From assembly GCA_023957275.1 (NCBI GenBank), contig JAMLHF010000022.1:1-61981 (forward strand): a stretch of DNA of 61,981 nucleotides, given 5' to 3'. Numbering within the stretch: position 1 is the first letter of the stretch; each line of letters opens with the position of its first letter. The stretch comes from Lentimicrobium sp. (GTDB taxonomy: Bacteria > Bacteroidota > Bacteroidia > Bacteroidales > Lentimicrobiaceae). Shown piece by piece: positions 18,582-34,530 of the stretch. Made by a program: the position numbers and the translations under genes. The notes beneath the pieces were generated by a model. The model had not been told where the DNA came from. It ran no database searches and saw nothing but the letters and a program-made list of their open reading frames with translations.

Positions 18582-19505
18582 ATGCAACGCAAGAAATTAG
18601 TTGTGGTAGGTAGTTGTAATACCGATATGGTTATTAAAGCCGACCGTTTGCCTATTCCGGGTGAAACTGTGCTTGGCGGGACTTTTTTTATGAATCCCGG
18701 GGGTAAGGGGGCCAATCAGGCGGTTGCCGCTTCCCGTATGGGCGGTAATGTGACTTTTATCTCCAAAACCGGCAATGATGTTTTTGGAAAGCAATCGGTG
18801 GTATTGTATAATTCCGAGAACATCAATACCGACTACATCTTTTCTGATCCGAATAATCCTTCGGGGGTAGCCCTGATTACAGTGGATTCGCGTGGTGAAA
18901 ACTGCATTGTGGTGGCTTCCGGTGCCAATGCATCGCTGTGTCCGGCCGATATTGAAAAGGCAGGCAGAGAAATCGAAAGCAGCGACCTGGTGCTGATGCA
19001 ACTTGAAATTCCGCTGGATACCGTTGAATATGTAGCCGAGCTGGCCAGCCGTAAAAATATAAAGGTCATTCTGAATCCTGCGCCTGCCCGGGCATTGTCG
19101 GACCAGTTGCTGAAGAACATCTACATCATCATCCCGAATAAGAGCGAGGCAGAGATCCTCTCGGGTATCAAGGTTTCCGATTACGATTCGGCCAGGCAGG
19201 CTGCCGACATCATCAGTGCCAAGGGCTGCGATATCGTGGTGATTACCCTTGGCAGTCAGGGAGCACTTATCAAAGATCACGATGAATACCATTTTGTGGA
19301 CGCGGTTAAGGTAGATGCAGTGGATACCACCGCTGCCGGCGACGTATTCTGCGGAACCGTGTGCGTTGGGCTTTCCGAAGGCAGGACCATACTTGAATCG
19401 GTACAGCTGGCGGCCAGGGCTTCGGCCATCACGGTTACCCGTATGGGGGCCCAGTCGTCGATTCCTACCCGCGCAGAGTTGTTAACTTTTGATCAGAATC
19501 AATAA
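18582..19505 (+). CDS. rbsK: Ribokinase
   Basis: A PfkB-family sugar kinase that makes ribose 5-phosphate from ribose and ATP in the cytoplasm. The 307-residue length is normal. Signatures: VVVGSCNTDMVIKADRLPIPGETVLGG is split here as VVVGSCNTDMVI and PGETVLGG; PGGKGANQAVAASRMGG binds ribose; the C-terminal DTTAAGDVFCG carries the catalytic Asp (about residue 248) and the anion hole. As first gene of a SusC/SusD locus it is the main clue that ribose is the released sugar. It ends 11 bases before the SusC start. Confidence 0.92.
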   Translation: MQRKKLVVVGSCNTDMVIKADRLPIPGETVLGGTFFMNPGGKGANQAVAASRMGGNVTFISKTGNDVFGKQSVVLYNSENINTDYIFSDPNNPSGVALITVDSRGENCIVVASGANASLCPADIEKAGREIESSDLVLMQLEIPLDTVEYVAELASRKNIKVILNPAPARALSDQLLKNIYIIIPNKSEAEILSGIKVSDYDSARQAADIISAKGCDIVVITLGSQGALIKDHDEYHFVDAVKVDAVDTTAAGDVFCGTVCVGLSEGRTILESVQLAARASAITVTRMGAQSSIPTRAELLTFDQNQ

Positions 19506-19515
19506 ATTTCGCTTT

Positions 19516-22473
19516 ATGAAAGCAGCCATATTCAGAAGAAAGATTGCAGGTGCAGGAACAGCCATGATGCTGCTCCTGTCGTTGCTCTTGTTGTCAGGTT
19601 CCGGTTATGCCCAGCAGGCCGATGTGCTGAGGGTCAAGGGAACGGTTACTGACCTGGGCACAGGAGAAACCCTCCCGGGGGTTAACATCTCTATAAAAGG
19701 TACCCAGACCGGAGCCGTTACGGATATCTACGGTAAATACAGCCTTGACGCGTTAAAGGGATCAGTGCTGGTCTTCAGCTTCGTAGGTTATGAAACCACT
19801 GAGGTTACCCTGGGTTCCCAGTCTACCCTTAATGTCAGGCTTAAACCTACCGTTGAATCCCTCGAAGAGGTGGTGGTAATCGGCTATGGCCTGACCACCC
19901 GTAAGGAGGTTACAGGTTCCATTGCCTCGGTGAAGGCGGATGACTTTAACCGCGGCGCCCACAGCAGCCCCATGGGATTGCTGCAGGGTAAGGTGGCGGG
20001 GCTTTCCATTACCCGCCCCGATGGTGCCGATCCGCAGGCAGGATACCAGATTCTGCTGCGCGGAACCAATACGCTGACCTCCGGACAGGGACCACTGGTG
20101 ATTGTTGATGGTGTGGCCGGGGTAGACCTGAAAAATGTGAGTTTTGAAGAAGTTGAATCCATTGATGTGCTGAAGGATGGTTCTGCGGCCGCCATATACG
20201 GTACCCGCGGCTCAAACGGGGTGATCATCATCACCACCAAAAGGGCCAGAACCGGACAGAGCAAGGTGGAGTACTCGGGATATCTTTCAGCTCAGGTAAA
20301 TCCCCGCATGGTGGAAAACCTGACAGCGGCGCAGTTCAAAGAAGCCGTTGAGCAATACGCTCCTGACAAGGTGGGCAGTTTGTACGGCGCCGAAACCGAC
20401 TGGTTTAAGGAGATTACCCGTCCTATGCCGGTTAGCCACAAGCACAACCTGGCAATTTCCGGAGGAAACGAGAACTTCTCGCACCGCACGGTTTTCTTTG
20501 TGGACAAGGCAGAAGGCTTACTCAAAGACAATGAATCGAACCGTTACCTCCTGAAAACCAACATCAATCAGAAAGCGCTGGGCGATCTGCTTACCCTCGA
20601 TTATAACCTGAGTTACGGTATGCGCAATTACAAGCCGGCCAACTATGACCTGTTCTACCAGGCCTTTATCCGCAACCCTACGTCCCCGGTTTATGATCCG
20701 GGCAATGAATATACCGGGGGTTACACCCTGATCTCGGGTATGGACTATTACAACCCGGTGGCCATGCTCAACGAGCGTATCCGCAATGGCAAAACCGATG
20801 ATATGGGCGCCAATGTAAGGGCTACCCTGAAACTCAGTAATCATTTGAACTGGGTGAATCTGGTTTCCGTCGAAAAATCAGCATGGGAAGAGCTTTCCTA
20901 TCGCACAAAGTATTATCCCAGCCGGCTGGGCCGGAACGGAGAGGCCGAAATCAGCAATGGCCGGAGCAGTGACCTGCAGTATGAAAGTACAGTGAATTTC
21001 ACCGAATCTTTTGAGAAACACAATTTGCAGGCGCTGGCCGGATATTCGTTCGAGGAATTTGAATCGAACAATTCTTACATGATCAACTCGGGTTTTGATA
21101 CCGATATTTACGGGCCTCATAACATCGGATCAGGCGTTGCGCTTTCCGAAGGTACCGCGTCTATGGGCTCCTATAAGGGCAAAAGCAGGCTGATTTCGTT
21201 TTTCGGCCGGGTAATGTATAATTTCGATGAAAAGTACCTGGCTTCCGCATCCCTGCGGAGAGAAGGTTCATCAAGGTTCGGTAAGAATCATAAATGGGGA
21301 TGGTTCCCCTCGGTCAGTTTGGGATGGAGAATCAACAAAGAGGACTTTCTCAATGATGTTCAGTGGGTCAACGACCTGAAAATCAGGGTGGGATATGGCG
21401 TCACCGGGAATCAGGACATCGGCAATTACCGTTCGCTGTTGCTGATGGGGCGCGCCGGTAAGTTTTACTACAACGGGGAGTGGATCAACACCTATCAGCC
21501 GGTGACCAATCCCAATCCCGACCTGAAGTGGGAAAACAAATCGGAAATCAATGCCGGCGTCGATTTTGCAATGTTTGATAACCGGCTGAGCGGTACCCTT
21601 GATTATTATTACCGGAAAAGTACCGACCTTCTGTACACCTACAACGTATCCGTTCCACCCTATCTTTACAAGGAATTGTTTACCAATGTCGGGACCATCA
21701 GCAACCGGGGGATTGAGCTTACCCTGAAACATGTGTCAGTTAATAAAGGAAAGCTTAACTGGACCAATATGCTCACCTTCAGCCGGAACAAGAATATCCT
21801 GGAAAAATTCTCGAATGAAGAGTTTACCGACACATCTTATGATCTTGGCTGGATTGGCGGTGCCATTGGTGTGAATGCCCAGAAGATCCGTGAAGGTGAA
21901 GCGCTGGGAACTTTTTACGGACCCGTGTGGATTGGGCTGGATGAGCTAGGCAACGACCTGTTTAAAAATGCCAATCCTGTCGGGCTGGTGAACCCTGAAG
22001 ACTGGGAGGTTATCGGGAATGCATTTCCTGACTTTACCCTGGGATGGGGAAGCTTTTTAACATACGGAAACTGGGACATCAGTTTTGCCCTGCGTGCCAG
22101 TATCGGAGGGGAAGTATTGAATACTTACCGGCTTTATTACGAGAACTGGGGAACCTTCGGTTTGAACAATGTTACCCTGACCCAGTTCGAAAATCCTGAA
22201 TTCAGGGGCAACGCCCGTTACTCTTCCAAATACGTGGAAGATGCCACTTATGTGAAGCTGGATAATATCTCGGTGGGTTATAACATGCCGGTCAGCCTGA
22301 AATACATCACCCGCCTGAGGGTATACGCGACGGCACAGGATGTATTCTGTCTTACCGGATATAAGGGCCTGGACCCGGAGGTGAACCTCGGCGGCCTGAC
22401 CCCCGGCATTGAATACCTCTCTTATTATCCACGAACCACCCTGTTGACACTGGGCGTTAATGTTACATTCTAA
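19516..22473 (+). CDS. SusC/RagA-type TonB-dependent outer membrane transporter
   Basis: The outer membrane channel of a SusCD uptake complex, energised by TonB. The start at 19516 gives a good signal peptide (AMMLLLSLLLLSGSGYAQ); a start at 19489 would overlap rbsK. In order: a carboxypeptidase-regulatory-like N-terminal domain (VKGTVTDLGTGETLPGVNIS, about residues 36-110), a plug domain (EEVVVIGYGLTTRKEVTGSI and SIDVLKDGSAAAIYGTRGS), and a 22-strand barrel ending TLLTLGVNVTF with terminal Phe. All features of a complete SusC are present at 985 residues. It is paired with the SusD gene 13 bases downstream. Confidence 0.95.
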   Translation: MKAAIFRRKIAGAGTAMMLLLSLLLLSGSGYAQQADVLRVKGTVTDLGTGETLPGVNISIKGTQTGAVTDIYGKYSLDALKGSVLVFSFVGYETTEVTLGSQSTLNVRLKPTVESLEEVVVIGYGLTTRKEVTGSIASVKADDFNRGAHSSPMGLLQGKVAGLSITRPDGADPQAGYQILLRGTNTLTSGQGPLVIVDGVAGVDLKNVSFEEVESIDVLKDGSAAAIYGTRGSNGVIIITTKRARTGQSKVEYSGYLSAQVNPRMVENLTAAQFKEAVEQYAPDKVGSLYGAETDWFKEITRPMPVSHKHNLAISGGNENFSHRTVFFVDKAEGLLKDNESNRYLLKTNINQKALGDLLTLDYNLSYGMRNYKPANYDLFYQAFIRNPTSPVYDPGNEYTGGYTLISGMDYYNPVAMLNERIRNGKTDDMGANVRATLKLSNHLNWVNLVSVEKSAWEELSYRTKYYPSRLGRNGEAEISNGRSSDLQYESTVNFTESFEKHNLQALAGYSFEEFESNNSYMINSGFDTDIYGPHNIGSGVALSEGTASMGSYKGKSRLISFFGRVMYNFDEKYLASASLRREGSSRFGKNHKWGWFPSVSLGWRINKEDFLNDVQWVNDLKIRVGYGVTGNQDIGNYRSLLLMGRAGKFYYNGEWINTYQPVTNPNPDLKWENKSEINAGVDFAMFDNRLSGTLDYYYRKSTDLLYTYNVSVPPYLYKELFTNVGTISNRGIELTLKHVSVNKGKLNWTNMLTFSRNKNILEKFSNEEFTDTSYDLGWIGGAIGVNAQKIREGEALGTFYGPVWIGLDELGNDLFKNANPVGLVNPEDWEVIGNAFPDFTLGWGSFLTYGNWDISFALRASIGGEVLNTYRLYYENWGTFGLNNVTLTQFENPEFRGNARYSSKYVEDATYVKLDNISVGYNMPVSLKYITRLRVYATAQDVFCLTGYKGLDPEVNLGGLTPGIEYLSYYPRTTLLTLGVNVTF

Positions 22474-22486
22474 GACGACGACAGCC

Positions 22487-24013
22487 ATGAAAAAAATGAA
22501 ATATATCGTTCTGTCCCTGGTTGGAGCCTGTGCGCTCACCATGGTATCGTGCACCGATCTGGAGGAGGAAGTTTATTCAGACATCCCGCTTGATAAATTC
22601 TTCCAGACCGAACGGGACGTACTGATGAATGCCGGAAGGGCATATACCAAGCTGCAGCGGTTTCCTGAAGAACAGCGGTTGTGGTCGCTGATTGAGAATT
22701 CGTCGGACGAGATGGTGATTCCCGGCCGCGACGATGGTTTGTGGTGGGAGCAGGGCCGCTGGGATGAACTCCACACCCACCGCTTCAACTCAAGTAATAA
22801 AATCCTGAGGCAGTCCTATGAGTATGTGTTTGAAGGGATCAGCGCCTGCAACGAAGTGATCTACGAAACCGAAGAATCTGAAATAACATTCGAGGGTAAG
22901 GACCGCATCGTTTCGGAAATCAAGATCCTGAGGGCGCTGTTTTACTACTGGGCCATCGACAACTGGGGCAACGTACCTTTTACGATCGACTTCACCGATA
23001 AGGAACTGCCCGAACAGAAAGACCGGAAGTTTATCTTCAGTTTTATAGAGCAGGAAATCCTGGATCATGTGGATAACCTGCAGGATCAGCCTACTGCCGC
23101 GCATTACGGAAGGGTTACCCAGGGGATGGCCTGGACATTGCTGGCAAAACTTTACCTGAATGCCGAAGAGTGGATCGGGGAAAGCAAATACGAACAGGCC
23201 GTGGATGCCTGTAACAAAGTGATTGCGCTCAATGCATACTCAATTGAAGATGATTATTTCACAAACTTTAAGGTGAAGAATGAAAACAGCCGCGAGAACA
23301 TTTTCGTGATTGTAAACCACTCTGTCTATACCAAGGACCGGCTATACTGGTATACCCTTACCCTGAACGATGCCAGCAGGGCTACTTTCGGGTTCAAGGG
23401 AGAGATGTGGGACGGCTTTGTACTGGAACCCGAGTTTTTCAATAAGTATGCTGAAAACGACCTGAGGCGGAATTCCTTCCTCTTCGGGCAACAGTATGAT
23501 ATGAACGGTAATCCGATCTATTTTATTGAGGAAAACGATACCGTCTGGTTTGAGTACACCCCCACCATTGGTAATTACCGTGCACGAAAAAAATGGGAAG
23601 GCGCCCGCTGCTGCAAGTATGAGTACCAGAAAGACCTGGAGTATTATGTAACCGATATGGAAAATGATTTTGTGCTTTTCCGTTATGCCGATGTGCTTTA
23701 TACCAAACTTGAGGCGCTCTGGCGTCTGGGCAGGGCCGGCGAAATGCTGAACGATCCGGAGTTGCAGAAAATCAGGACGCGGGCGGGCATGCCTCCTTAT
23801 CAGGCTTCCGATATTACGGCGGAAGAGCTGCTGGATGAGTTTGGCCGTGAGTTTGCCTGGGAAGCCCGGCGCCGGCAGGATCAGATCCGGTTCGGCGTTT
23901 GGGGGAATACCTGGTGGAACAAACCGGCATCCGGCCCCACTGCCAAACTCTTTCCGCTACCGCAGACCGCACTCAGCGCCAATTCAAAACTTCGCCAGAA
24001 TCCTGGCTACTAA
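22487..24013 (+). CDS. SusD/RagB-type surface lipoprotein
   Basis: The lid of the SusCD complex, which binds substrate at the cell surface. The start at 22487 gives a lipoprotein signal (IVLSLVGACALTMVSC); an upstream ATG at 22460 lies inside the SusC gene. The 508-residue product shows the RagB/SusD features: helical TPR-like N-terminal part (EIKILRALFYYWAIDNWGNVPF is split here as LRALFYYWAIDNWGNVPF), and the C-terminal FGREFAWEARRRQDQIRFG and PLPQTALSANSKLRQNPGY, the usual SusD ending. It is followed after 11 bases by the first ADP-ribosylglycohydrolase-family gene. Confidence 0.94.
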   Translation: MKKMKYIVLSLVGACALTMVSCTDLEEEVYSDIPLDKFFQTERDVLMNAGRAYTKLQRFPEEQRLWSLIENSSDEMVIPGRDDGLWWEQGRWDELHTHRFNSSNKILRQSYEYVFEGISACNEVIYETEESEITFEGKDRIVSEIKILRALFYYWAIDNWGNVPFTIDFTDKELPEQKDRKFIFSFIEQEILDHVDNLQDQPTAAHYGRVTQGMAWTLLAKLYLNAEEWIGESKYEQAVDACNKVIALNAYSIEDDYFTNFKVKNENSRENIFVIVNHSVYTKDRLYWYTLTLNDASRATFGFKGEMWDGFVLEPEFFNKYAENDLRRNSFLFGQQYDMNGNPIYFIEENDTVWFEYTPTIGNYRARKKWEGARCCKYEYQKDLEYYVTDMENDFVLFRYADVLYTKLEALWRLGRAGEMLNDPELQKIRTRAGMPPYQASDITAEELLDEFGREFAWEARRRQDQIRFGVWGNTWWNKPASGPTAKLFPLPQTALSANSKLRQNPGY

Positions 24014-24024
24014 ATAACGCATTT

Positions 24025-26016
24025 ATGAAAAGAAAAAACCTTCATTTCCGGGTTCAGGCAACACTGTTGTTGATGCTGCTTCCCTTTTTCCTGTCGGCAG
24101 GCAAACCCCTGCGCATCAAAAAGAGCGATTTGCGCGACAAAATTGAGGCTGCATGGGTCGGGCAGATGATAGGAAATATTTACGGACTTCCGCATGAAAA
24201 CAAGTATGTAAATGCCCCCGGCCCGGAGAACTGGCCATACGGCTACACGAAAAATCTGGACAAGCTGCAGAAATACGACGGGGCATTTTCCGACGATGAT
24301 ACCGATCTGGAGTATATGTACCTGCTGCAGATGATGAAGCATGGTCCCGAACCCACCTATGCACAGCTGCGCGATGCCTGGATGTATCATATCCGCGACC
24401 GGGTGTGGCTGGCCAACCGGGGCGCCCTCGGGTTGATGCATTACGGATATACGCCGCCGTTTACCGGCAGCAAAGAACTGAATCCGCACTGGTATCAGAT
24501 TGATCCTCAACTGATCAATGAAATATGGGCGTTCACCGCTCCGGGAATGATAAAATATGCCGCTGACAAGTCGGAATGGGCCGCCCGCATCACCAGCGAT
24601 GACTGGGGCGTGGAGCCCACCATCCATTACGGTGCGATGTATGCTGCCGCCTTCTTCGAGAAAGATATCCGTAAACTGATTGATATCGGACTGAAATCGC
24701 TGCCTGCTGACGGAAGGTATGCTGCCACCGTAAAGGATATGATCAGCTTGCATGCAAAGTACCCTAAGGACTGGAAAGCTGCCTGGCAGGAAATGGCGCA
24801 GAAGTATTACATTCATGAGCACGACATGACCAAAACCATCTGGAATGCCAACCTCAACGGAGCCTGTGCCATACTGGCCATGCTCTACGGCGAAGGTGAC
24901 TTTCAGCGTACGCTCGATCTTTCATGCGCCATGGGATTTGACGCCGATAACCAGGCCGCCACGGTGGCCGGGCTGATGGGGGTGATGTACGGCATGAAAG
25001 GCCTGCCCGAAAATCTTTATCTTCCCGTAAAGGGCTGGACGAAACCCTTTAACGACAAGTACATCAATATTACCCGTTACGACCTGCCCGACACGCAGAT
25101 CTCGGTAATCATTGACAATACCCTTCAGCAAACGATAGATCTGATTGTAAGCAAGGGCGGGAAAGTAACGGGAAAACCCGGCAGTGAAGTGATAGTAATC
25201 AATCCGGATGCTGACTTCCGCGCGCCCATGGAATTTTACTATGGTCCTGATCCGGTACTCGTGGCCGGCAAAGCCGTTGATTTCAGCTTTTATACTCCGG
25301 CCAACAAAATTTACAACTGGTCCTTGATTTCAGGTACACTGCCCGCCGGTCTTACCTTTACAAACGGCCGGCTGACCGGAACTCCTGTGAAAGCCGGAGA
25401 TTACAGCATAGTATTGCAGATCAGCGACGGCAAAGAAAAACAAGCCCGTGAATTCAGCCTGCTGGTGCGTGGGCACAACCTGGCCCGCCTGGCCGATACG
25501 ATCTACTCGAACGTCAGGAAACTGAATGAAAAAGTGCTGGATTCATGCTGGTACACTTTTGGCAAATCGTTGTATGCCAAAGAGATATCAGTGATCAATG
25601 ATGGAAAAACTTCCGGCCCGGGCTCGGTATTCTACAGCCTGGCTGCCAAGGCAAATATACCCAAAGTGGATTACTACGGATACGGTTGGAATGAACCTCA
25701 GGAGGTTGAAATGATTGTATTTAATACTGGTGGAATGGAGGAGTTCGGTGGTTGGTTTACTTCTCTGAATGTGCAATATCTGAATGAAGCAGGCAGATGG
25801 GTGCCGGTTGAAAAATCCATTGTCAATCCCCCGCTGCCTGCTTCGGATATTGTGTTTATCCAGCCCCATTACGCAGAGTATGTGCTCCGTTTCGATCCGG
25901 TTAAAACCAAAGGTATCCGGATAATCGGAGATGCCATGGTGCAAAGCCACTGGAACAAATACACTAAAAATGTTTCAGCCTTCACTTCCATTACCGAGCT
26001 AAGTGTTTACCCGTAA
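24025..26016 (+). CDS. Exported ADP-ribosylglycohydrolase-family protein with Ig-like and discoidin-like domains
   Basis: The start at 24025 gives a signal peptide without lipobox (LLLMLLPFFLSAG). The catalytic domain follows. Its first metal motif is DDDTD (D91, D92, T93 form the classical DDT) and its second is GFDADNQAA (D306, D308), so the binuclear magnesium site looks intact. Members remove ADP-ribose from proteins or small molecules; many exported ones have unknown glycoside substrates. Near residues 425-485 is a putative-Ig (He_PIG) domain (GTLPAGLTFTNGRLTGTP), then a discoidin-like beta domain to the end, likely to bind the substrate or a surface. It is the first of three family members in a row and lies in the ribokinase/SusCD locus. 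Confidence 0.88.
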   Translation: MKRKNLHFRVQATLLLMLLPFFLSAGKPLRIKKSDLRDKIEAAWVGQMIGNIYGLPHENKYVNAPGPENWPYGYTKNLDKLQKYDGAFSDDDTDLEYMYLLQMMKHGPEPTYAQLRDAWMYHIRDRVWLANRGALGLMHYGYTPPFTGSKELNPHWYQIDPQLINEIWAFTAPGMIKYAADKSEWAARITSDDWGVEPTIHYGAMYAAAFFEKDIRKLIDIGLKSLPADGRYAATVKDMISLHAKYPKDWKAAWQEMAQKYYIHEHDMTKTIWNANLNGACAILAMLYGEGDFQRTLDLSCAMGFDADNQAATVAGLMGVMYGMKGLPENLYLPVKGWTKPFNDKYINITRYDLPDTQISVIIDNTLQQTIDLIVSKGGKVTGKPGSEVIVINPDADFRAPMEFYYGPDPVLVAGKAVDFSFYTPANKIYNWSLISGTLPAGLTFTNGRLTGTPVKAGDYSIVLQISDGKEKQAREFSLLVRGHNLARLADTIYSNVRKLNEKVLDSCWYTFGKSLYAKEISVINDGKTSGPGSVFYSLAAKANIPKVDYYGYGWNEPQEVEMIVFNTGGMEEFGGWFTSLNVQYLNEAGRWVPVEKSIVNPPLPASDIVFIQPHYAEYVLRFDPVKTKGIRIIGDAMVQSHWNKYTKNVSAFTSITELSVYP

Positions 26017-26028
26017 AAAACTGAAAAG

Positions 26029-27672
26029 ATGAAGCATACTATCAGAAATTTTTTTGTAATGCCCTTGCTCGCCCTGTTGCTGGCGGGTATCATGACTTCA
26101 TGCGATAAAACAGGCAGCAGTGGCCCTGTTGCCGGAACTTCTGTAAAGCTGTCGCACGAACAACTGAAAGACAAAATTAAGGGCGGATGGGCCGGACAAA
26201 CCATAGGCGTGGTCTATGGCGCACCGGTTGAATTCAAATACCAGGGCTCCACCATTGATGAATACCAGCTGATCCCCTGGCATGAACATTACGTTAAGTA
26301 TTGGTGGGAGAAGAAACCCGGGCTGTTCGATGATATTTACACAGACCTTAACTTTGTAAATGTATTTGAGAAATACGGTCTTGAAGTCAGCACCGATACC
26401 ATTGCCGCATACTGGGCCAACACGGCCTATCACCTGGCGCATGCCAATCAGGCTTCGCGTTACAATATCCTCAGGGGGTTGAAACCACCCCAGACGGGCC
26501 ACTGGCTGAACAATCCCCATGCCGATGATCTTGATTTTCAGATAGAAGCTGATTTCATCGGGCTTATGGCTCCCGGTATGGTGAACCATGCAACTGAAAT
26601 TGCCGACAGGGTCGGGCATATCATGAACAGCGGCGACGGATGGTACGGCGGGGTGTTTGTTTCGGCGCTCTACTCCCTGGCATTTGTTTCCGATGATGTT
26701 GAATTTATTGTGGGGGAAGCCGTAAAGACCATCCCCGAAGGCACGAAATTTCACGATTGCGTCGCCGATGTGATTAAATGGCACAAGCAGTATCCTGACG
26801 ACTGGAAAGCCACCTGGTTTGAACTTCAGAAGAAATGGAACAAAGATGTGGGCTGTCCCAAAGGGGTTTACCTTTCATTCAACATCGATGCCAAGATCAA
26901 TTCCGCTTACGTGGCCATCGGGTTGCTTTATGGTAAGGGCGATTTCTCCCGCTCAGTCGACATCGCCACGCGCTGCGGGCAGGATGCCGATTGCAATGCA
27001 GCCACTGCGGGCGGTGTGCTGGGCGTAATGCTGGGCTATGATGCCATCCCTGAATTCTGGCTGAACCCGCTGAAAGAGGTTGAAACGCTGAACTTCGAAA
27101 GCACCGAGATGTCGCTCAGCAAAGCTTATGAAATGAGTTACCGCCATGCCCTGGGTATCGTTCAGCTTGCCGGCGGGAAGACCGAAGGTGAAACTGTAGA
27201 AATTCCTTATGAAAATCCGGTTGCGGTCGCGTTTGAGCAGAACTTTGTGAATTGCCACCCCATTGCCCGTGAGAAAATTGACCGCTCGTTTATGGATGAG
27301 ATTACCTTTAATTTTACCGGAAACGGCTATATTCTGTATGGAAATATGGTAAAAAGGGCCAAGGTGGATCCCGACTACATCGACCGGATTTCCAAAAGGC
27401 TGGGTTCTGAAGTATTTGGTCTTGCAGAACTGGAAGACCCTTATGTAGCTGAGGTTGAAGTATACATTGACGGAGAACTGGATGAAACGGTTTACCTGCC
27501 TATGAAGAATACCTCACGCCGGCTGGAACCGGCCTGGAAATACCAGCTCCCCGAAGGCAAGCATGAGGTTCGCCTGAAATGGGTCAACAATACCCCGGAT
27601 TATGAAATCCGGATCAACGACCTGATCGTTTATTCCGAAAATCCTCCCATTAGTCCTTTACCCGTTAACTGA
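26029..27672 (+). CDS. ADP-ribosylglycohydrolase-family lipoprotein (paralogue 2)
   Basis: A 547-residue protein with a lipobox signal (LLAGIMTSC). The family fold is recognisable from KIKGGWAGQTIGVVYGAP, typical of the glycohydrolase entry, and the second metal motif GQDADCNAATAGG (D319, D321). The first metal motif differs from the classical DDT: it reads DDIYTD at 101-106, with the Asp pair shifted two residues upstream. The C-terminal 130 residues form a beta-sandwich (FNFTGNGYILYGN and YIDGELDETVYLPM) resembling carbohydrate-active accessory domains. It is clearly homologous to the next gene. The stop overlaps the next start by one base (TGATG), so the two are translationally coupled. 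Confidence 0.87.
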   Translation: MKHTIRNFFVMPLLALLLAGIMTSCDKTGSSGPVAGTSVKLSHEQLKDKIKGGWAGQTIGVVYGAPVEFKYQGSTIDEYQLIPWHEHYVKYWWEKKPGLFDDIYTDLNFVNVFEKYGLEVSTDTIAAYWANTAYHLAHANQASRYNILRGLKPPQTGHWLNNPHADDLDFQIEADFIGLMAPGMVNHATEIADRVGHIMNSGDGWYGGVFVSALYSLAFVSDDVEFIVGEAVKTIPEGTKFHDCVADVIKWHKQYPDDWKATWFELQKKWNKDVGCPKGVYLSFNIDAKINSAYVAIGLLYGKGDFSRSVDIATRCGQDADCNAATAGGVLGVMLGYDAIPEFWLNPLKEVETLNFESTEMSLSKAYEMSYRHALGIVQLAGGKTEGETVEIPYENPVAVAFEQNFVNCHPIAREKIDRSFMDEITFNFTGNGYILYGNMVKRAKVDPDYIDRISKRLGSEVFGLAELEDPYVAEVEVYIDGELDETVYLPMKNTSRRLEPAWKYQLPEGKHEVRLKWVNNTPDYEIRINDLIVYSENPPISPLPVN

Positions 27673-29246
27673 TGACCATGATAAAAAAACTGATCTTTCT
27701 TCCGCTTATCCTGTTGCTGGTGGTATCATGCCAGCCAGGGATGAAAAAGCAGACTGAGCTCCCCGAATCGGTCACCCTTTCGAAAGAAGCGCTGTCTGAT
27801 AAAATCAGGGGCGGCTGGGCCGGTCAAACCATCGGCTGCACCTACGGAGGGCCAACCGAGTTCAAGTTTAAAGGCACCATGATACAGGATTATCAGGAAA
27901 TGGTGTGGTACGACGACTATATCGGAGAAATTTATAAACTCGATCCGGGTTTGTACGATGATGTTTACCTTGATTTCACATTTGTTCAGGTGATCGAGCG
28001 CCTTGGCGTCAATGCGCCTGCCGACTCCTTTGCCGTTGCCTTTGCCCGCGAAGATTACAAGCTCTGGCATGCCAACCAGGCGGCGCGCTACAATATCCTG
28101 AATGGCATCATGCCCCCCGAATCGGGGCACTGGATGAATAATCCCCATGCCGATGACATTGATTTTCAGATAGAAGCCGACTTCGCCGGTCTCATGTTTC
28201 CCGGAATGATCAACAGTGCGGCTGAACTCTGCGACCGCACCGGACACATTATGAATTACGGCGATGGATGGTATGGTGGCGTTTTTGTGGCCGGAATGTA
28301 TGCCACGGCATTTATTTCTGACGATATCGCTTTTGTGATTGAGCAGGGACTGAAACCCATTCCTCCGCAAAGCAAGTTTCACCAGGTAATCAGCGATGTG
28401 ATTGCCTGGCACCAACAGTATCCTGATGACTGGAAAAAATGCTGGTTTGAAGTTGAGAAAAAGCACACTTCCGAAAAAGGCTGCCCCGAAGGGGTTTTCA
28501 ATGCGTTTAACATCGATGCATCGGTGAATGCCGCCTATGTGGTAATCGGACTGCTCTACGGGGAAAAGGATTTTTACAAAACCATGGACATTGCTACCCG
28601 CTGCGGACAGGACTCTGACTGCAATCCTGCCACAGCAGCCGGAATTCTGGGCGTAATGCTGGGCTACAGCAGGATTCCTGCATTCTGGAAGCCCGCCATC
28701 GAAAAAGTGGAGGATGTGATGTTCCCTTACTCCGATCTTACGTTGAATCAGGTTTATGATCTCAGCTACAAGCATGCTCTTGAGCAGGTGGAAGCCAACG
28801 GCGGTGCCGTGGGCAGCAACGACCTGACCATAAAAGTTCAGGCCCCGGAGCAACTCAGGTTTGAGGAGTCTTTCCCGGGAATGTTTCCCGTTAAGGAGTT
28901 GCTCGTGCGTACCGACCACCTGGAGGAAAGTATAAAAATAGACTTCAGCGGTACAGGCATTGTGGTGCTGGGCAATGTAAAAAGCCGGTGTATTGATGAA
29001 TCCCGTGATTTTGTTGCCCTGCTGGATGTATACATCGATGGTGAAGTGGCAGAACAGGTAAAAATGCCCTTTGATTACATCACCCGCAAGTATGATATTT
29101 TTCACAGGTATATGCTCCCCTCAGGTGAACACAAGCTTGAAATCAAATGGGTAAACCAGCATCCTGATTTCAGGATTTATTTCAAATCATACGTGGTATA
29201 TGATGACAAACCCCTTGAACCCCTGAGTAAAAAAGCAAACCTCTGA
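27672..29246 (+). CDS. ADP-ribosylglycohydrolase-family lipoprotein (paralogue 3)
   Basis: A 524-residue lipoprotein (signal LIFLPLILLLVVSC). The start is 27672, or 27678 two codons later; both are plausible and the latter gives a cleaner signal. It is about as similar to its upstream neighbour as a diverged tandem duplicate: same entry motif (KIRGGWAGQTIGCTYGGP), same C-terminal beta domain (FSGTGIVVLGNV, YIDGEVAEQVKMP). The first metal motif is DDVYLD (residues 96-101) and the second is GQDSDCNPATAAG (D314, D316). With Leu where the classical motif has Thr, the substrate or metal geometry may differ. It ends in an ATGA overlap with the first esterase gene. Confidence 0.87.
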   Translation: MTMIKKLIFLPLILLLVVSCQPGMKKQTELPESVTLSKEALSDKIRGGWAGQTIGCTYGGPTEFKFKGTMIQDYQEMVWYDDYIGEIYKLDPGLYDDVYLDFTFVQVIERLGVNAPADSFAVAFAREDYKLWHANQAARYNILNGIMPPESGHWMNNPHADDIDFQIEADFAGLMFPGMINSAAELCDRTGHIMNYGDGWYGGVFVAGMYATAFISDDIAFVIEQGLKPIPPQSKFHQVISDVIAWHQQYPDDWKKCWFEVEKKHTSEKGCPEGVFNAFNIDASVNAAYVVIGLLYGEKDFYKTMDIATRCGQDSDCNPATAAGILGVMLGYSRIPAFWKPAIEKVEDVMFPYSDLTLNQVYDLSYKHALEQVEANGGAVGSNDLTIKVQAPEQLRFEESFPGMFPVKELLVRTDHLEESIKIDFSGTGIVVLGNVKSRCIDESRDFVALLDVYIDGEVAEQVKMPFDYITRKYDIFHRYMLPSGEHKLEIKWVNQHPDFRIYFKSYVVYDDKPLEPLSKKANL

Positions 29247-30856
29247 TGCAACGAAACGGCAGATTCTTCCTTAAATTAATTCTGTTGCCGGTATTTCTGG
29301 TGCTTGCAGCCCTTGCCGGCTGCAAAAAGGAGAAGCCTGACAACGGGACTACGCTGCCTTTTGAGCGTTTGCGCAAGGATTTGTCGGTACAGAGCAGTCT
29401 GCTGAACAGGGCCATTAACTATGCCGTGCTGTTGCCACCGGAATACGAACATGGCCAGGATACCTACCCGGTAGTCTATCTGCTCCATGGCTTTGGTGAC
29501 AATGAAAAAGCCTGGTACCAGGGGGGCAATGTCCGCTATTATGCCGATCAGTATGCCGGCGAAACGGGTCCGGTGATCTATGTGATGCCCCAGGGTTTCA
29601 ACACCTACTGGGTTAATAAATATAGCGGGACTTATCCCTACATGGATATGCTGATCAACGAACTGATGCCAGCCGTTGAATCGGAATTCCGCGTCAGTAA
29701 GGAAGCTTCGCAGCGTGCCGTGATGGGCTATTCCATGGGCGGATACGGTGCATTGATTCTGGCGGCCAAAAATCCGGAAGTTTTCGGAACGGCCGTTGTG
29801 CTCAGCATGTCGTTCCGCACGGATGCGCAATACCTCAATGAGCCACAGGGGGTTTTCGACAGTCAATGGGGGACGGTCTTCGGCGGGATGGGTAAATCGG
29901 GCAACGATCGCCTTACTCCTTACTTCCTCGAACACAGCCCGTTTCATTTTTTTACGGAAGCAGGCGATCCTTCACGCGGTGGACAGCGTTACTTTATCGA
30001 CTGCGGCGACGATGAGGAAAGCTTGTCGGAAACCAACGATGCGATGCACCTGTTGATGCGAGATCAGGGCATCTATCATGAGTACCGGGTGCGCAACGGG
30101 GCCCATTCGTGGGATTACTGGCACAAATCCCTGCCGGAGGCATTCAGGTATATCGGCCATGCATTCCGAAATCTTCCATATTCCGATCAGGGTGACGATA
30201 CTTTTACTGACAACCCTGTTCAATCCGCCAGGATTCATACTCATTTTACTGTAGCAACCCAGCAGCCTTTCTATGTAGTGGTGCCGGAGGGCTATGCTAC
30301 CGAAAGCAATGCCTATCCGGCGATTTATATTTTACATGACCGTTCTGCCGGGATGGAACAGGAGGAATCGGCGGATCTGCTGGCCAGGATGGATGCCAAT
30401 ATTTCCGGACTGCGGCTGCCAAAATCGTTGATTGTGGAGATCCCGACTGTGAATGAAATACTTTCCCTGGAAACATTAAGCGGGATCAAAGAAATGGTAA
30501 ACCTGGAATACCGGGTAAAAACTGAAGGAAAATTTGCTGTAATTGCTGGTAATGGAGGCGCCGGAGCAACTCTGTATACTATGCTGCCCGAACTCGGGAG
30601 TCTCTTTAATGCATGTTTGTTTTTTGATGCTGAACTGCCCTCCGGCGCCTCCATGACCGGAACCGACCTGGCCTGTTACCTCGATATCACGGATCAGGGC
30701 AATAACTATCAGCCTTATCACTCATTTTATATGAGCCTGAGACAGCAGCAGATTCCCCATGAATACAGGGTAAGACAGGGGTTGCCTTCGCATGGCAGTT
30801 TCCTTGCTGGATTGAGTGAAGCATCGGTTTTTATAAAGGACAACCTGAAAAAATAG
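29246..30856 (+). CDS. Two-domain esterase lipoprotein, second half catalytically degenerate
   Basis: A 536-residue lipoprotein (signal LVLAALAGC) made of two esterase-like halves. The first half (about 30-300) belongs to the esterase D/feruloyl-esterase-like alpha/beta hydrolases: YPVVYLLHGFGDNEKAWY, nucleophile S163 in GYSMGGYG, acidic residue near D252-D256 and H287 in GAHSWDYW. The second half (about 330-536) repeats the fold (YAIY-like PAIYILHD, EYRVRQG) but the nucleophile elbow reads GNGGAG (435-440), with Gly at the place of Ser; H516 may remain. So one half is likely active and the other may bind ligand or the partner half. It probably removes acyl groups from the substrate of this locus. 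ATGA overlap with the gene upstream. Confidence 0.85.
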   Translation: MQRNGRFFLKLILLPVFLVLAALAGCKKEKPDNGTTLPFERLRKDLSVQSSLLNRAINYAVLLPPEYEHGQDTYPVVYLLHGFGDNEKAWYQGGNVRYYADQYAGETGPVIYVMPQGFNTYWVNKYSGTYPYMDMLINELMPAVESEFRVSKEASQRAVMGYSMGGYGALILAAKNPEVFGTAVVLSMSFRTDAQYLNEPQGVFDSQWGTVFGGMGKSGNDRLTPYFLEHSPFHFFTEAGDPSRGGQRYFIDCGDDEESLSETNDAMHLLMRDQGIYHEYRVRNGAHSWDYWHKSLPEAFRYIGHAFRNLPYSDQGDDTFTDNPVQSARIHTHFTVATQQPFYVVVPEGYATESNAYPAIYILHDRSAGMEQEESADLLARMDANISGLRLPKSLIVEIPTVNEILSLETLSGIKEMVNLEYRVKTEGKFAVIAGNGGAGATLYTMLPELGSLFNACLFFDAELPSGASMTGTDLACYLDITDQGNNYQPYHSFYMSLRQQQIPHEYRVRQGLPSHGSFLAGLSEASVFIKDNLKK

Positions 30857-30859
30857 AGC

Positions 30860-32425
30860 ATGAAACGGATTAGTTGTCTGTTGATAAGTTGCCTGCTGCT
30901 CCTGACTGGTTTTAATGCCAGCGCAGGTGACAAGCTGGTGATGGAGAGCATGACCATGCACAGCAGGATACTTGGTCAGGAGGTCCGTTTTTCGGTGATT
31001 CTGCCGGAGGGTTATTATGCTGAAAATCGTCGCTATTCTGTGGTTTACCTGCTTCACGGGCTGGGCGACGATGAGACCTCATGGCTGGAATACGGGCGCA
31101 TCGGGCAATACAGCCGCAAAGCCATGGCATCCGGTGATATCGCCCCGGTGATATTCGTGATGCCCCAGGCTTTCAGGACTTATTATGTGAACGACTATGC
31201 CGGAGAATTTCCTTATCAGGACATGCTTGTGCAGGAATTTGTCCCTCACATCGACAGCCTTTTCAGAACGATTCCCGATGCCGGCAACCGCGCGGTGATG
31301 GGTTACTCCATGGGCGGTTTCGGGGCGATGGTGCTCCACCTGGCCCATCCCGGAGTGTTTGGTGTTTCCGTCCCCCTGAGTATGTCGGTAAGAACCGACG
31401 AACAGTATATGACCGAAGAAGCCTCAGGCTGGGATGAGCAATGGGGCCGGCTTTTCGGCGCTCCCGGGCTGACCGGAGCCGACCGCATCACCGGTTACTA
31501 CAAGTTGCACAGCCCGTTTCATACCTTGCCCGGGCTTGGTGAAGCGCAGAAAAAGAACCTGAAAATTTACATGGTAAACGGCGATGAAGAGCAGACCCTT
31601 TGCCGCAGCAATGAAATGCTGCATATCCTGATGCACCGTTTTGACGTTCCGCATCATTACAGGGTTATTGATGGCGGTCACAGCTTCAGGGTGTGGCAGG
31701 CCGCGTTGCCCGGCGTACTGCGCTATATCAGCGATGCCTTCGAAGGTAAACCTTACCGGGGTGATCTTATGGATTCTCCTGCAGCAGGGCTGCTTCCTCA
31801 TGAGCAGATGATGGTGGTGAATACCGGTGGTGAGCGGGTATTTGCTTATGTGCCGGATGATTACCAGGTATCCGACAGAAAGTATCCCGTTGTTTATTTT
31901 ACCGGAATCACTGGGCAGGAACAGATGGTTTCGATCAGCTCTCTGGTCGACCACGGGATCCACGCGGGCAAGACAACGCCCATGCTGATTGTGTTTCTTC
32001 CCGAGAAGGATGAGACCGGGATATTGACATTGATTGATCAGCTTGAAAAGCAGTTGCGCATTCGTTCCGGCTACCGGTTCAGGTCTGTTGCAGGATATGG
32101 TAAGAGCGCGGAAACCACGCTGCGGTTGCTTAACGGGGAGATGCGTTTCAGCAGTTGTCTGCTCACAGGCGCCGTTATGAGCAGTGCTGAAGCAGACGAA
32201 ATCCTCTCATCCTTTGAAGTGGAAAAGCTGAAAAGAACCAGTCTGTTCATTGATGCGCCCGACAACGGCTGTTGTGCTGAGGGCAATGGCGAATTACATA
32301 TGATGCTGCGCGATATGGAGGTAAACCATGAATACAGAGTGAGACAGGGTAACGGAGACGAAGGCTGGATCGAAAGGGGATTAGGAGAAGCGATTAACAC
32401 CATTTCAGCCAGATTTCACAGATAA
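30860..32425 (+). CDS. Two-domain exported esterase, second half catalytically degenerate
   Basis: A 521-residue homologue of the preceding esterase, with a signal peptide but no clear lipobox (LLISCLLLLTGFNASAG). The first half has YSVVYLLHGLGDDETSW, nucleophile S150 in GYSMGGFG, an acidic GDEEQ segment and GGHSF as the histidine motif. The second half (about 310-521) again has the fold, but the elbow reads GYGKSA (412-417) with Gly in place of Ser and no matching histidine near EYRVRQGNGDEG. The same architecture and the same lost serine as its neighbour point to tandem duplication of an already two-domain gene. It starts three bases after the upstream stop. Confidence 0.85.
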   Translation: MKRISCLLISCLLLLTGFNASAGDKLVMESMTMHSRILGQEVRFSVILPEGYYAENRRYSVVYLLHGLGDDETSWLEYGRIGQYSRKAMASGDIAPVIFVMPQAFRTYYVNDYAGEFPYQDMLVQEFVPHIDSLFRTIPDAGNRAVMGYSMGGFGAMVLHLAHPGVFGVSVPLSMSVRTDEQYMTEEASGWDEQWGRLFGAPGLTGADRITGYYKLHSPFHTLPGLGEAQKKNLKIYMVNGDEEQTLCRSNEMLHILMHRFDVPHHYRVIDGGHSFRVWQAALPGVLRYISDAFEGKPYRGDLMDSPAAGLLPHEQMMVVNTGGERVFAYVPDDYQVSDRKYPVVYFTGITGQEQMVSISSLVDHGIHAGKTTPMLIVFLPEKDETGILTLIDQLEKQLRIRSGYRFRSVAGYGKSAETTLRLLNGEMRFSSCLLTGAVMSSAEADEILSSFEVEKLKRTSLFIDAPDNGCCAEGNGELHMMLRDMEVNHEYRVRQGNGDEGWIERGLGEAINTISARFHR

Positions 32426-32456
32426 CGGATTATTAACACACCAAAAACAAGCAGAT

Positions 32457-33464
32457 ATGTTTATCGTAAGTAGTTACTCGCTGGCAGTCGCCCTTTGCTT
32501 CATCACCATGTTGTGCTGGGGATCCTGGGGCAATACGCAGAAACTGGCCGCCAAAACCTGGCGCTATGAATTGTTTTACTGGGATTATGTAATCGGAGTG
32601 GTACTGCTCTCGCTGCTGATGGGTTTTACACTGGGAAGCACAGGGGAGCAGGGCCGCAGTTTCATTCCTGACCTGATGCAGGTAAGTGCGGCCAACTTCG
32701 GCAGCGCATTCCTGGGAGGTATTATTTTCAATGCATCCAACATCCTGCTGTCTGCTTCCATCTCTCTGGCCGGTATGGCGGTTGCTTTTCCGGTAGGCGT
32801 CGGACTGGCCCTGGTACTGGGGGTGTTTATCAACTATTTTGGTGCACCATACGGAGATGCCGTCCTGCTGTTCAGCGGGGTTGCCTTTATCGTTTTTGCA
32901 CTGATCTTCAATGGCGTGGCTTACGGAAAGATTACGAAAAACAAGGATAAGAATGTGGCACGTAAAGGCCTCTATATCGCCATTGCTGCCGGTATCCTGA
33001 TGTCGTTCTTCTACCGTTTTGTGGCTGCCGCAATGGACCTCAACAACTTTGAATCGCCCACGCCAGGAATGGTTACGCCATACACCGCGGTATTTATTCT
33101 TGCGCTGGGGATGCTGTTCAGCAACTTCTTCTTCAATACCTACCTGATGAAGAAGCCTTTCGTAGGGGAACCGGTAACCTACAAAGCTTATTTCAGCGGA
33201 GGATTTTCCACGCACATGGTGGGTGTACTCGGTGGTCTGATCTGGGGTATTGGTACTTCTCTGAGCTATATTGCCACCGGGGAAGCCGGAGCAGCCATTT
33301 CTTATGCACTCGGACAGGGCGCAACCATGGTCGCCGCCTTCTGGGGCGTATTTATCTGGAAAGAATTCAGGGGATCTACCAAAACCATTAACCTCCTGCT
33401 TTTCCTGATGTTTTTGCTTTTCACCTCCGGCCTCGCGCTGATCATTGTGGCCGGTAATCAGTAG
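32457..33464 (+). CDS. GRP-family sugar permease (glucose/ribose porter type)
   Basis: A 335-residue inner membrane protein with about ten hydrophobic helices, in the drug/metabolite superfamily fold of the glucose/ribose porters. Family features include the N-terminal CFITMLCWGSWGNTQKLA and FGSAFLGGIIFNASNILLSASISLAG, then FPVGVGLALVLGVFINY and the C-terminal WGVFIWKEFRGS. In this locus it most likely brings the released sugar, probably ribose, across the inner membrane to the ribokinase encoded at the start. From memory, related ribose-utilisation loci of Bacteroides also combine SusCD, ribokinase and a permease of this kind. Start chosen at 32457, 31 bases after the esterase. Confidence 0.85.
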   Translation: MFIVSSYSLAVALCFITMLCWGSWGNTQKLAAKTWRYELFYWDYVIGVVLLSLLMGFTLGSTGEQGRSFIPDLMQVSAANFGSAFLGGIIFNASNILLSASISLAGMAVAFPVGVGLALVLGVFINYFGAPYGDAVLLFSGVAFIVFALIFNGVAYGKITKNKDKNVARKGLYIAIAAGILMSFFYRFVAAAMDLNNFESPTPGMVTPYTAVFILALGMLFSNFFFNTYLMKKPFVGEPVTYKAYFSGGFSTHMVGVLGGLIWGIGTSLSYIATGEAGAAISYALGQGATMVAAFWGVFIWKEFRGSTKTINLLLFLMFLLFTSGLALIIVAGNQ

Positions 33465-33521
33465 AATTTTAATTCCAATCACACAATAACTCTCATTCAT
33501 TAACCAAAAACCAAAAAAACA

Positions 33522-34292
33522 ATGAAAAAGTTTTTTTCAATCATGGTGCTGGCAGCCATTACTGCCATGAGTTTCACAGCATGCGACAACAAGGACGACG
33601 ACGGAGATGATCCCATTGTTGTACCTCCCGCAAAAATCAAAACCATCAGCGTGAATTACGGAGACGGCGTTGAAGGCTATGAGTTTATTTACGACGCCAA
33701 CGACAAGGTTTCAAAAATCTACAATTCATGGGAAGGCGCTGTTGTTGATACCATCAAATATGATTACTCGGTAGCCGGCAAACTGACCATCACCAAGGAA
33801 GACTGGCCCACCACCTACGAACTCAATGCAGAGGGTCTGGTCGTGAAAGAAATCTGGGATGAAACCAGTTATGCTTCCTATGAGTATGACGCCAATGGTT
33901 ACCTGACCGGAATCAATGAATTCTGGGATGGCGCCAACCACAAGAAATATGAGGTTGAAGTGACCAATGGCAATGTTACCAAACATACCAGGTACAATGA
34001 CGAAGGTGTTGTTAACCGTTACAAAACCTTTACTTACACCGCCGGCGAAAACACTGCCAAGATCCAGCAGGCCAATGCCGTGGATTCAAACTGGAAAACG
34101 GTGGGCGGAATCTTTGGCAAGCCCAGCAATAAACTGGTTGACTATCTTGAATACTGGGATCCGGGCGACGAAGCCAACAAGAAAACCACAACCATTACCT
34201 ACACTTTTGATGCTGAGAACAGGATTGCAACCATGACCCGCTCAGGTGACGGATGGCAGGAACTTTACGCCTTTTCTTATTACGAAGACTAA
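33522..34292 (+). CDS. Lipoprotein with YD-like beta repeats (DUF4595-like)
   Basis: A 256-residue lipoprotein (signal VLAAITAMSFTAC) with an acidic linker after the cysteine (DNKDDDGDD). The rest is a run of beta hairpins of about 20-25 residues with a recurring pattern of the type YDANGYLTGI, FTYTAGENT and FDAENRIATM. This is the RHS/YD-like arrangement seen in Bacteroidales surface lipoproteins of the DUF4595 kind. No catalytic motif is visible. It closes the ribokinase/SusCD locus 57 bases after the permease and just before a good terminator, so it may be a surface binding protein of this system; that role is inference. Confidence 0.7.
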   Translation: MKKFFSIMVLAAITAMSFTACDNKDDDGDDPIVVPPAKIKTISVNYGDGVEGYEFIYDANDKVSKIYNSWEGAVVDTIKYDYSVAGKLTITKEDWPTTYELNAEGLVVKEIWDETSYASYEYDANGYLTGINEFWDGANHKKYEVEVTNGNVTKHTRYNDEGVVNRYKTFTYTAGENTAKIQQANAVDSNWKTVGGIFGKPSNKLVDYLEYWDPGDEANKKTTTITYTFDAENRIATMTRSGDGWQELYAFSYYED

Positions 34293-34372
34293 AAAGAAAA
34301 TGAGCCGGCCAATGATTAAAGAGATATTTACTCTTCCTGATAATGATTGGTTGGTGTGTTTTTGAGGAGGGA

Positions 34373-34417
34373 AAAGAGGTGCTTTGCAGGCTATCTGCTG
34401 GCACCTCTTCCTTTTTT
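34373..34417 (+). terminator. Rho-independent terminator at the end of the ribokinase/SusCD locus
   Basis: AAGAGGTGC and GCACCTCTT form a perfect nine-pair outer stem with a smaller inner CAG/CTG stem, followed by CCTTTTTT. It lies about 80 bases after the last stop of the locus. Confidence 0.8.
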
Positions 34418-34530
34418 CCTGTGAGGGTGAAAATCGGACAGATCCTGTTCATCAGGGCAGGGGTAAGTAAGTGTGAAGAAATTACTTATTGCTCATAAGG
34501 TTCAGGTAATACAATAATAATCTGCTTTAT

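Follow-up and report, generated by a model that had tools for sequence, protein, structure and literature searches.

A Rus-family operon of Lentimicrobium sp. with three PF03747 proteins and two esterases, probably specialised for an ester-decorated ribofuranoside

The ribose-activated polysaccharide utilization locus of Bacteroides thetaiotaomicron, the Rus locus BT2803-2809, is controlled by RusR, is itself most active on ribose, and includes rusT, a putative ribose transporter (PMC12596196). The present study concerns a relative of this system in Lentimicrobium sp. (Bacteroidales; GenBank assembly GCA_023957275.1), carried on contig JAMLHF010000022.1 and analysed as a stretch of 61,981 nucleotides that is called the window below. 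Ten plus-strand genes at positions 18582-34292 of the window form one tight operon that encodes a ribokinase, a SusCD pair, three PF03747 proteins (ARH1, ARH2 and ARH3), two esterases (EST1 and EST2), a sugar permease and a lipoprotein. By the features compared here the locus belongs to the Rus family, and it is probably specialised for an ester-decorated ribofuranoside. Rus loci themselves are already known; what is new is the link between this operon and genes for DASS-family anion symporters and citrate lyase, which narrows the search for the substrate. Gene content, protein families, conserved residues, export signals and conserved linkage were read from sequence, and the fold of ARH3 was taken from a predicted model.

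The operon and its Rus core

The features of the locus, with the families or other evidence behind each assignment, are the following.

18582..19505, plus strand: ribokinase, RusK-like (TIGR02152, PRK11142)
19516..22473, plus strand: SusC-type TonB-linked outer-membrane transporter, RusC-like (TIGR04056)
22487..24013, plus strand: SusD-type lipoprotein, RusD-like (PF07980; LTMVSC near the N-terminus)
24025..26016, plus strand: ARH1, PF03747 protein of 663 amino acids (PF03747, PF05345)
26029..27672, plus strand: ARH2, PF03747 lipoprotein of 547 amino acids (PF03747)
27672..29246, plus strand: ARH3, PF03747 lipoprotein of 524 amino acids (PF03747; ARH-fold model)
29246..30856, plus strand: EST1, PF00756 esterase lipoprotein (PF00756)
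30860..32425, plus strand: EST2, PF00756 esterase with a signal-like N-terminus (PF00756)
32457..33464, plus strand: GRP/DMT-type sugar permease, RusT-like (PF07168, PF06800)
33522..34292, plus strand: lipoprotein with an RHS-like repeat and an acidic N-terminus (PF05593, 28.3 bits; CDNKDDDGDD)
about 34365..34420, plus strand: intrinsic terminator, hairpin and U run (folding energy against shuffles)
16728..18278, minus strand: RusR-type gene of the BT2802 family (NF058569)
18279..18581, no strand: intergenic region of 303 bases (sequence read; putative function)
34531..36012, plus strand: DASS-family sodium-coupled anion symporter (TIGR00785, 266.1 bits, cut-off 198.6)

Successive gaps between the ten genes measure 10, 13, 11, 12, -1, -1, 3, 31 and 57 bases. 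Coordinates, families and gaps confirm the tightly spaced, one-strand, ten-gene operon before a terminator that a preliminary description of this DNA had reported, with the start of the first PF03747 gene corrected to the ATG at 24025. The hairpin that follows the lipoprotein gene folds at -30.3 kcal/mol against a shuffle mean of -18.6 (z -3.73; 1 of 200 shuffles as stable); a separate hairpin scan with a loop limit of 8 does not list it. A lipobox is present in ARH2, ARH3, EST1, SusD and the last lipoprotein of the operon, while the signal-like N-termini of ARH1 and EST2 yielded none. The last lipoprotein perhaps has a surface ligand-binding role.

The ribokinase exceeds the cut-offs of both TIGR02152 (369.7 bits, cut-off 299.65) and PRK11142 (352.4, cut-off 341), aligns nearly end to end with the solved ribokinases 4x8f and 1gqt, and is the only ribokinase above cut-off in the genome. 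SusC scores 734.7 bits on TIGR04056 and SusD 77.1 on PF07980. The permease is over cut-off for two GRP-type families, PF07168 (72.5 bits) and PF06800 (32.8 bits), and a "GRP family sugar transporter" adjoins rbsK in three annotated plasmids. Together with a RusR-family neighbour, these genes support the earlier view of a Rus-like ribose locus. In a Pfam scan of the ten operon proteins, pyrophosphatase, phosphatase, nucleotidase and base-catabolism families were all absent, as were glycosidase families directed at other sugars. The absence of a nucleoside hydrolase, already remarked for the operon, extends to the whole assembled genome (PF01156, 0 matches at E 0.001).

The preliminary description was mistaken in placing no regulator next to the operon: the gene at 16728-18278 diverges from it at a distance of 303 bases. 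Its product matches NCBIfam NF058569, "BT2802 family ribose utilization protein", at 684.8 bits (cut-off 550) and no Pfam family at E 0.01, and its AlphaFold model is all helix, with a mean predicted local distance difference test (pLDDT) score of 85.3. BT2802 is taken here to be RusR, which fits the gene numbering. A gene of this type also stands divergently beside the ribokinase in related loci. Among 295 genomes of the order, NF058569 has 33 matches at E 1e-20; all 13 strong ones (at least 386 bits) lie 2.6-15.9 kb from a homologue of the window's permease; for the 20 weak matches (188.1 bits or below), no such homologue is on the same contig. The RusR-family protein is a candidate controller of the operon, and the spacer at 18279-18581 probably holds divergent promoters and an operator. 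Near its right end, TAGATTTG resembles the Bacteroidota -7 element. Counting 10-mers across 26 RusR-ribokinase spacers returned no operator motif, only A+T-rich words.

Weak RusR-type relatives (21-24% identity) from a phylum scan were first taken for Bacteroides RusR, but their genus is probably not Bacteroides. Neither ribokinase nor permease is found in 16 of 16 neighbourhoods of these weak relatives (20 regions were fetched, the other four being strong relatives), and the permease is missing from 17 of 17 genomes of the genus and PF01156 from 11 of 12. The Bacteroides reading was therefore dropped; a B. thetaiotaomicron-like Rus locus, sought in the same genomes, was not found. A distant RusR-type paralogue family at this level of identity (loci L148-L151 and L156-L167 in our numbering) is common in Bacteroidota, the 16 loci read lying away from ribose genes. 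At 15981-16715, the window encodes a protein-L-isoaspartate methyltransferase (PF01135) with a signal-like N-terminus, perhaps exported.

Three PF03747 enzymes and two esterases

ARH1, ARH2 and ARH3 score 108.1, 130.9 and 132.4 bits on PF03747 (cut-off 26.2) and are its sole matches in the 4.4 Mb genome. ARH1 carries a putative Ig domain, He_PIG (PF05345, 34.6 bits), and a further C-terminal part; ARH2 contains the motifs GLFDDIYTD and CGQDADC; and the model of ARH3 has an N-terminal ARH-fold domain followed by a C-terminal beta domain (about residues 384-511). Five acidic residues, E63, D96, D97, D314 and D316, are invariant in all 71 rows of the ARH2/ARH3 alignment, as are E58, D90-D92, D306 and D308 in all 44 rows of the ARH1 alignment. 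D96/D97 pair with the DD of the first motif in the 1t5j alignment, and D314/D316 with the DxD of the second motif in the alignments with 6dre, 1t5j and 2woe. Residues at these positions bind Mg in ARH enzymes.

A profile search finds the solved structures 6dre and 2woe; with the ARH1 profile, no relative among solved structures appears at E 0.01. The AlphaFold model of ARH3 (mean pLDDT 92.8, predicted template modelling score 0.91) is matched best in Foldseek by vertebrate ARH3, 6hgz (E 2.2e-7, template modelling (TM) score 0.75 by target length, 12% identity), and further by DraG (2woc) and other ARH-fold proteins with TM scores by target of up to 0.77, E-values among the 50 best matches listed running from 2e-7 to 3e-5. 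In a tree made by a quick method from 109 rows (the window's three proteins plus 106 sequences left after the 211 collected had been thinned by locus number and length, with three long rows flagged as unsure), the operon ARH1, ARH2 and ARH3 form separate groups, with support of 100 for ARH2 and 93 for ARH3 (drawn open); a branch of single-copy PF03747 proteins has support of 86 (open). By alignment and tree, the three enzymes are distinct conserved lineages with invariant putative metal-site residues. Such distinctness fits the earlier suggestion that each glycohydrolase would handle a different linkage, and riboside activity is predicted for all three.

EST1 and EST2 score 130.4 and 128.7 bits on PF00756, and EST2 is 34% identical to EST1. 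Both had been called double-domain esterases; the two-part plan stands, but a putative Ser-Asp-His triad, assigned by position, is kept only in the N-terminal half (S163, D255 and H287 in EST1; S150, D242 and H274 in EST2; each invariant in 43 of 43 rows). The C-terminal domains are degenerate: no Ser, Asp or His is kept at 95% or above, and among the residues tested only a Y-R motif (EYR in EST2) is conserved. The closest solved relative of EST1 is the ferulic acid esterase 7xrt (E 3.9e-43). With two esterases that conserve their putative triads, the ester-carrying substrate proposed in the preliminary description is probable.

Distribution and citrate-lyase neighbours

Relatives were collected by scanning one genome per species with the ARH2/ARH3 alignment, and the best 80 of 156 confirmed relatives were used; gene content was counted by tblastn because open reading frame (ORF) calling hid genes under antisense frames (L044, L082-L086). 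ARH1, ARH2 and ARH3 occur together in 48 of the 80 related loci. The "new variant" of the preliminary description therefore holds only with a qualification: the architecture is widespread, and tandem PF03747 genes also occur in ATP-binding cassette (ABC) transporter loci. Ribokinase, SusC, SusD, three ARH, an esterase and the permease are present in 39 loci, and all ten genes stand in the window's order in 28. Six further loci have two of the three ARH, five of them cut by a contig edge and one (L068) without ARH1. Of the 39 fuller loci, 20 have a RusR-type gene, 10 a LacI-type gene and nine neither; three of these nine begin at a contig edge (L054, L072, L073) and six have citrate-lyase genes upstream.

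Among the named carriers are Bacteroidales, Cyclobacteriaceae (L049, L063, L064, L066, L087), Ferruginibacter and Gelidibacter japonicus. The last (L065) has the whole operon with its final two genes swapped, and in Ferruginibacter sp. HRS2-29 (L056) the operon is cut in SusC by a contig edge and no ribokinase is seen; these named isolates allow testing. Thirteen loci (L074, L075, L077-L086, L088) are labelled rumen type here, their source being given as a ruminant organ for 5, by a RUG code for 4 and not at all for 4; a single esterase was found in every one, LacI in 12 and the permease in 10. The triple operon thus spans several Bacteroidota orders, from ruminant-stomach metagenome-assembled genomes to free-living isolates, and its substrate should therefore be common. 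Within the order, the permease is present in 36 of 295 genomes, and three congeners (G399, G516 and G613 in our numbering) give no match to the permease, CitF or RusR family, which marks the locus as accessory. The pattern in these three is as if the ribose operon and citrate lyase had been gained or lost together.

The remaining 26 of the 80 loci hold PF03747 genes of the ARH2/ARH3 kind only; 24 of them have a single copy, and L096 and L116 have two each. Ribokinase accompanies them in 15, the permease in 16, either in 18 and a nucleoside hydrolase in 7. Anchoring on the permease in the order sample instead gives 37 loci (38 fetched, one without a called permease ORF left out), with ribokinase in 29, PF03747 in 15, nucleoside hydrolase in 10 and the triple operon in 5, four of which are probably the same records as L050, L053, L058 and L106. 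PF03747 also stands beside ribokinase on Agrobacterium, Deinococcus and Mycolicibacterium plasmids. The operon probably derives from a smaller cassette of ribokinase, PF03747 and permease, which in some cases includes a nucleoside hydrolase.

A DASS symporter gene, at 34531-36012 in the window, adjoins the operon in 23 of 35 non-rumen-type loci, the count being of complete or partial operons whose right flank extends for at least 1.5 kb (six further loci have no such flank). DASS and/or CitDE/CitF stand beside the operon in 33 of the 35 (DASS 23, CitDE/CitF 15, both 5), and L043 and L106 have neither. CitDE/CitF lie downstream in nine loci (e.g., L040, L056, L059, L076) and upstream of the ribokinase in six (Cyclobacteriaceae, Gelidibacter). 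The L059 CitF passes TIGR01584 (523.0, cut-off 501.45), and so does the CitD part of the L040 CitD-CitE fusion its own model (66.7, cut-off 63.5). No DASS or citrate-lyase neighbour occurs in the fetched flanks of the 26 single-kind loci. Across 50 genomes hand-chosen from the 80, CitF is over the Pfam cut-off in 36 of 37 non-rumen-type operon genomes (some fragmented), 3 of 4 rumen-type and 0 of 9 single-kind genomes (Fisher p 2e-8, kinship uncorrected). In the order sample, all six known operon carriers have CitF (p 0.005 against the rest, 0.02 against other permease carriers). The window's genome encodes its CitF on another contig (L256). When 20 CitF neighbourhoods were fetched, from a set that, except for L272, omitted genomes with CitF already known to adjoin the operon, the operon was seen only in L272. 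Judged by listings, open-licence papers yielded no report linking PF03747 or ribokinase with citrate lyase or naming ribosyl citrate-type compounds, and none of PF03747 together with a glycoside hydrolase, of ribosidases or ribofuranosidases in Bacteroidetes or of a triple-PF03747 operon architecture. Past the symporter gene, an adaptor-like gene (36042-37169) adjoins a minus-strand ORF of 1446 amino acids (37176-41516), which by eye looks like a fusion of an RND-type efflux pump with a TolC-like outer-membrane factor.

Acid chemistry also accompanies some PF03747 tandems elsewhere. Five multi-PF03747 regions from the phylum scan were opened (L276-L280); L279 and L280 were rejected as tandem operons on opening, and L276-L278 each join an ABC transporter to three or four neighbouring PF03747 genes in one operon. 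L278 carries a PF00756 esterase, and L276 and L277 carry beta-lactamase-fold genes. In L277, CitDE (50%) and CitF (63%) directly follow the PF03747 genes, this CitF being in the family but below the TIGR01584 cut-off (465.8). Two queries returned 33 and 35 plasmid records with PF03747 relatives, and 20 plasmid stretches were opened, seven of them unannotated and read by BLAST alone. Nine have a ribokinase-like gene (L281-L284, L287, L291, L294, L295 on the other strand, and L300; L293 is doubtful), three from Sinorhizobium or Ensifer have a CitE-like lyase (L285, L288, L298), and in seven neither kinase nor lyase was seen. The three with the lyase share the order ABC transporter, two PF03747 genes, then CitE-like lyase, with a coenzyme A (CoA)-transferase annotated in L285 and L288; the sister locus L287 has a ribokinase in place of the lyase. 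Two plasmid CitE-like lyases that were tested reach 147 bits against the citE cut-off of 443. Since neither the organisms nor their transporters are related to those of the window, several PF03747 enzymes were probably coupled with acid chemistry on more than one occasion, though the examples are few. The substrate would be one from which both ribose and a hydroxy acid are released.

Likely substrate and relation to known systems

In the mechanism proposed here, the surface lipoprotein and SusCD would bind the compound and move it through the outer membrane. Acyl groups would then be stripped by the N-terminal domains of EST1 and EST2, and ARH1, ARH2 and ARH3, as metal-dependent hydrolases with the ADP-ribosylglycohydrolase fold, would act outside the cytoplasm, each on a ribosyl linkage of its own. 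Free ribose would enter by the GRP-type permease and the ribokinase would convert it to ribose 5-phosphate, with the RusR-family protein controlling the operon. The acid freed by the esterases or ribosidases would probably be a citrate-like hydroxy acid, which the neighbouring DASS symporter may import and citrate lyase, encoded on the other contig in this genome, may cleave. The substrate (ribose coupled to such an acid), the order of steps and the identity of the acid are inferred.

PF03747 is named for ADP-ribosyl removal, yet in these loci it mostly accompanies a ribokinase, a sugar permease or a nucleoside hydrolase, and this company argues that many members are nutritional ribosidases. 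A broader proposal is put forward only tentatively: that in an unnamed, widespread nutrient ester and/or glycosidic bonds join ribose to a hydroxy acid of the citrate type (citrate, citramalate or malate), with the ribose freed by several PF03747 enzymes and the acid used via a C-C lyase, either CitDEF or a CitE-like lyase working with a CoA-transferase. The SusCD/Rus and ABC loci might then have been assembled independently to use one kind of molecule, and PF03747 proteins might largely be nutritional ribosidases rather than ADP-ribosyl hydrolases.

Several observations weigh against a ribose-acid substrate or against riboside activity. The 13 rumen-type loci all lack DASS and citrate-lyase neighbours in the fetched flanks, which shows that such operons either do not need the acid part or leave it to genes elsewhere. 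In the L040 fusion, the CitE part falls below the citE equivalogue cut-off (259.4 against 443.4), and citrate itself is therefore not certain. CitF occurs in 124 of the 295 genomes of the order, making its presence alone of little meaning, and the DASS gene follows the terminator, which means that co-transcription is not required. By tblastn, 8 of the 26 single-kind loci have neither ribokinase nor permease. The best fold matches of the ARH3 model are true ADP-ribosyl hydrolases, at 12-14% identity. ARH3-type genes also occur among GH97, GH30, GH92, GH26, GH123 or DUF2961 genes, and the clade may therefore act on other glycosides as well: L103 has GH97, GH30 and DUF2961 next to the PF03747 gene, L209 has GH92, DUF2961 and GH26, and L107 has GH123, while L108 has a sulfatase but ribokinase and permease too. 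As a separate observation, DUF2961 near ARH3-type genes in the multi-glycosidase clusters of L103, L209 and (by clustering only) L107 hints at furanosidase roles beyond ribose.

Of the alternatives, an O-acetylated, ribofuranose-rich O-antigen, capsule or exopolysaccharide is unlikely but fares best; the esterases would be deacetylases and the DASS/citrate-lyase link incidental. SusCD and surface lipoproteins imply an oligomer, the esterases are CE1-like and ribofuranose is common in O-antigens, but the operon has no glycosidase family for other sugars, and such a substrate would leave unexplained both DASS/CitDEF beside 33 of 35 loci and the citrate lyase or CoA-transferase/lyase pair beside PF03747 in some ABC-type loci. 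Nucleoside scavenging, with PF03747 enzymes replacing nucleoside hydrolases to split ordinary nucleosides or alpha-nucleosides such as alpha-ribazole, is improbable. It would fit the joint occurrence of PF03747 and PF01156 in sister cassettes and the lack of PF01156 matches in the window's genome, yet nucleosides need neither SusCD nor three different enzymes and two esterases, and the operon has no base-catabolism family. Still less credence goes to a furanose other than ribose taken by a ribokinase-like enzyme: PfkB kinases can be promiscuous, and the DUF2961 neighbours point the same way, but both ribokinase equivalogue models are over cut-off and the neighbour is of the RusR family. Least credible is a diet of ADP-ribose, poly-ADP-ribose or ADP-ribosylated protein, for although PF03747 members of known function cleave ADP-ribosyl bonds, the putative metal site is conserved, and structure and profile searches lead to vertebrate ARH3, DraG, 6dre and 2woe, the ADP-ribosyl conjugates of the preliminary description are unsupported by an operon without pyrophosphatase, phosphatase or nucleotidase families, by the plain ribokinase, GRP-type permease and nucleoside hydrolase that accompany PF03747 (single-copy loci being mostly in such a plain ribose context), and by the position before DD, where 1t5j has Thr but ARH1, ARH2 and ARH3 have Ser, Phe and Tyr, respectively.

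As a probable locus for an ester-decorated ribofuranoside, the operon can be set beside several known systems. In Escherichia coli, yegTUV likewise unites a putative nucleoside symporter, a PF03747-type protein and a sugar kinase in one operon; it differs in having one PF03747-type protein and an ADP-glucose-responsive GntR-type repressor, with no SusCD and no esterases (PMC10819704). The ABC-transporter loci (L276-L278 and rhizobial plasmid loci such as L285, L287 and L288) resemble the operon in holding several PF03747 genes, from two to four; L278 adds an esterase, L277 citrate lyase, L285 and L288 a CoA-transferase and a CitE-like lyase, and L287 a ribokinase. They differ in that import is by an ABC transporter and the PF03747 enzymes are apparently cytosolic; neither a SusCD pair nor RusR was found in them, and in several plasmid loci of this type (e.g., L286, L289) neither kinase nor lyase was seen.

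A similar set of genes is found on a Parabacteroides distasonis plasmid (L284), which by its RefSeq names carries rbsK, an ADP-ribosylglycohydrolase family protein, a nucleoside hydrolase and a GRP family sugar transporter. Its ARH3-type PF03747 protein is 56% identical and its divergent BT2802-like gene 37% identical; it differs in having one PF03747 gene and one nucleoside hydrolase, without SusCD or esterases. Variation of Rus loci across Bacteroidetes was reportedly described by Glowacki et al. (2020), perhaps with ADP-ribosylglycohydrolases among the accessory genes. Unlike the Rus locus of B. thetaiotaomicron (BT2802-BT2809), the operon here has three PF03747 enzymes, two esterases, a single ribokinase and no nucleoside hydrolase. 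What the two share is the BT2802-family gene, the ribokinase, SusC and SusD, and probably the GRP-type permease.

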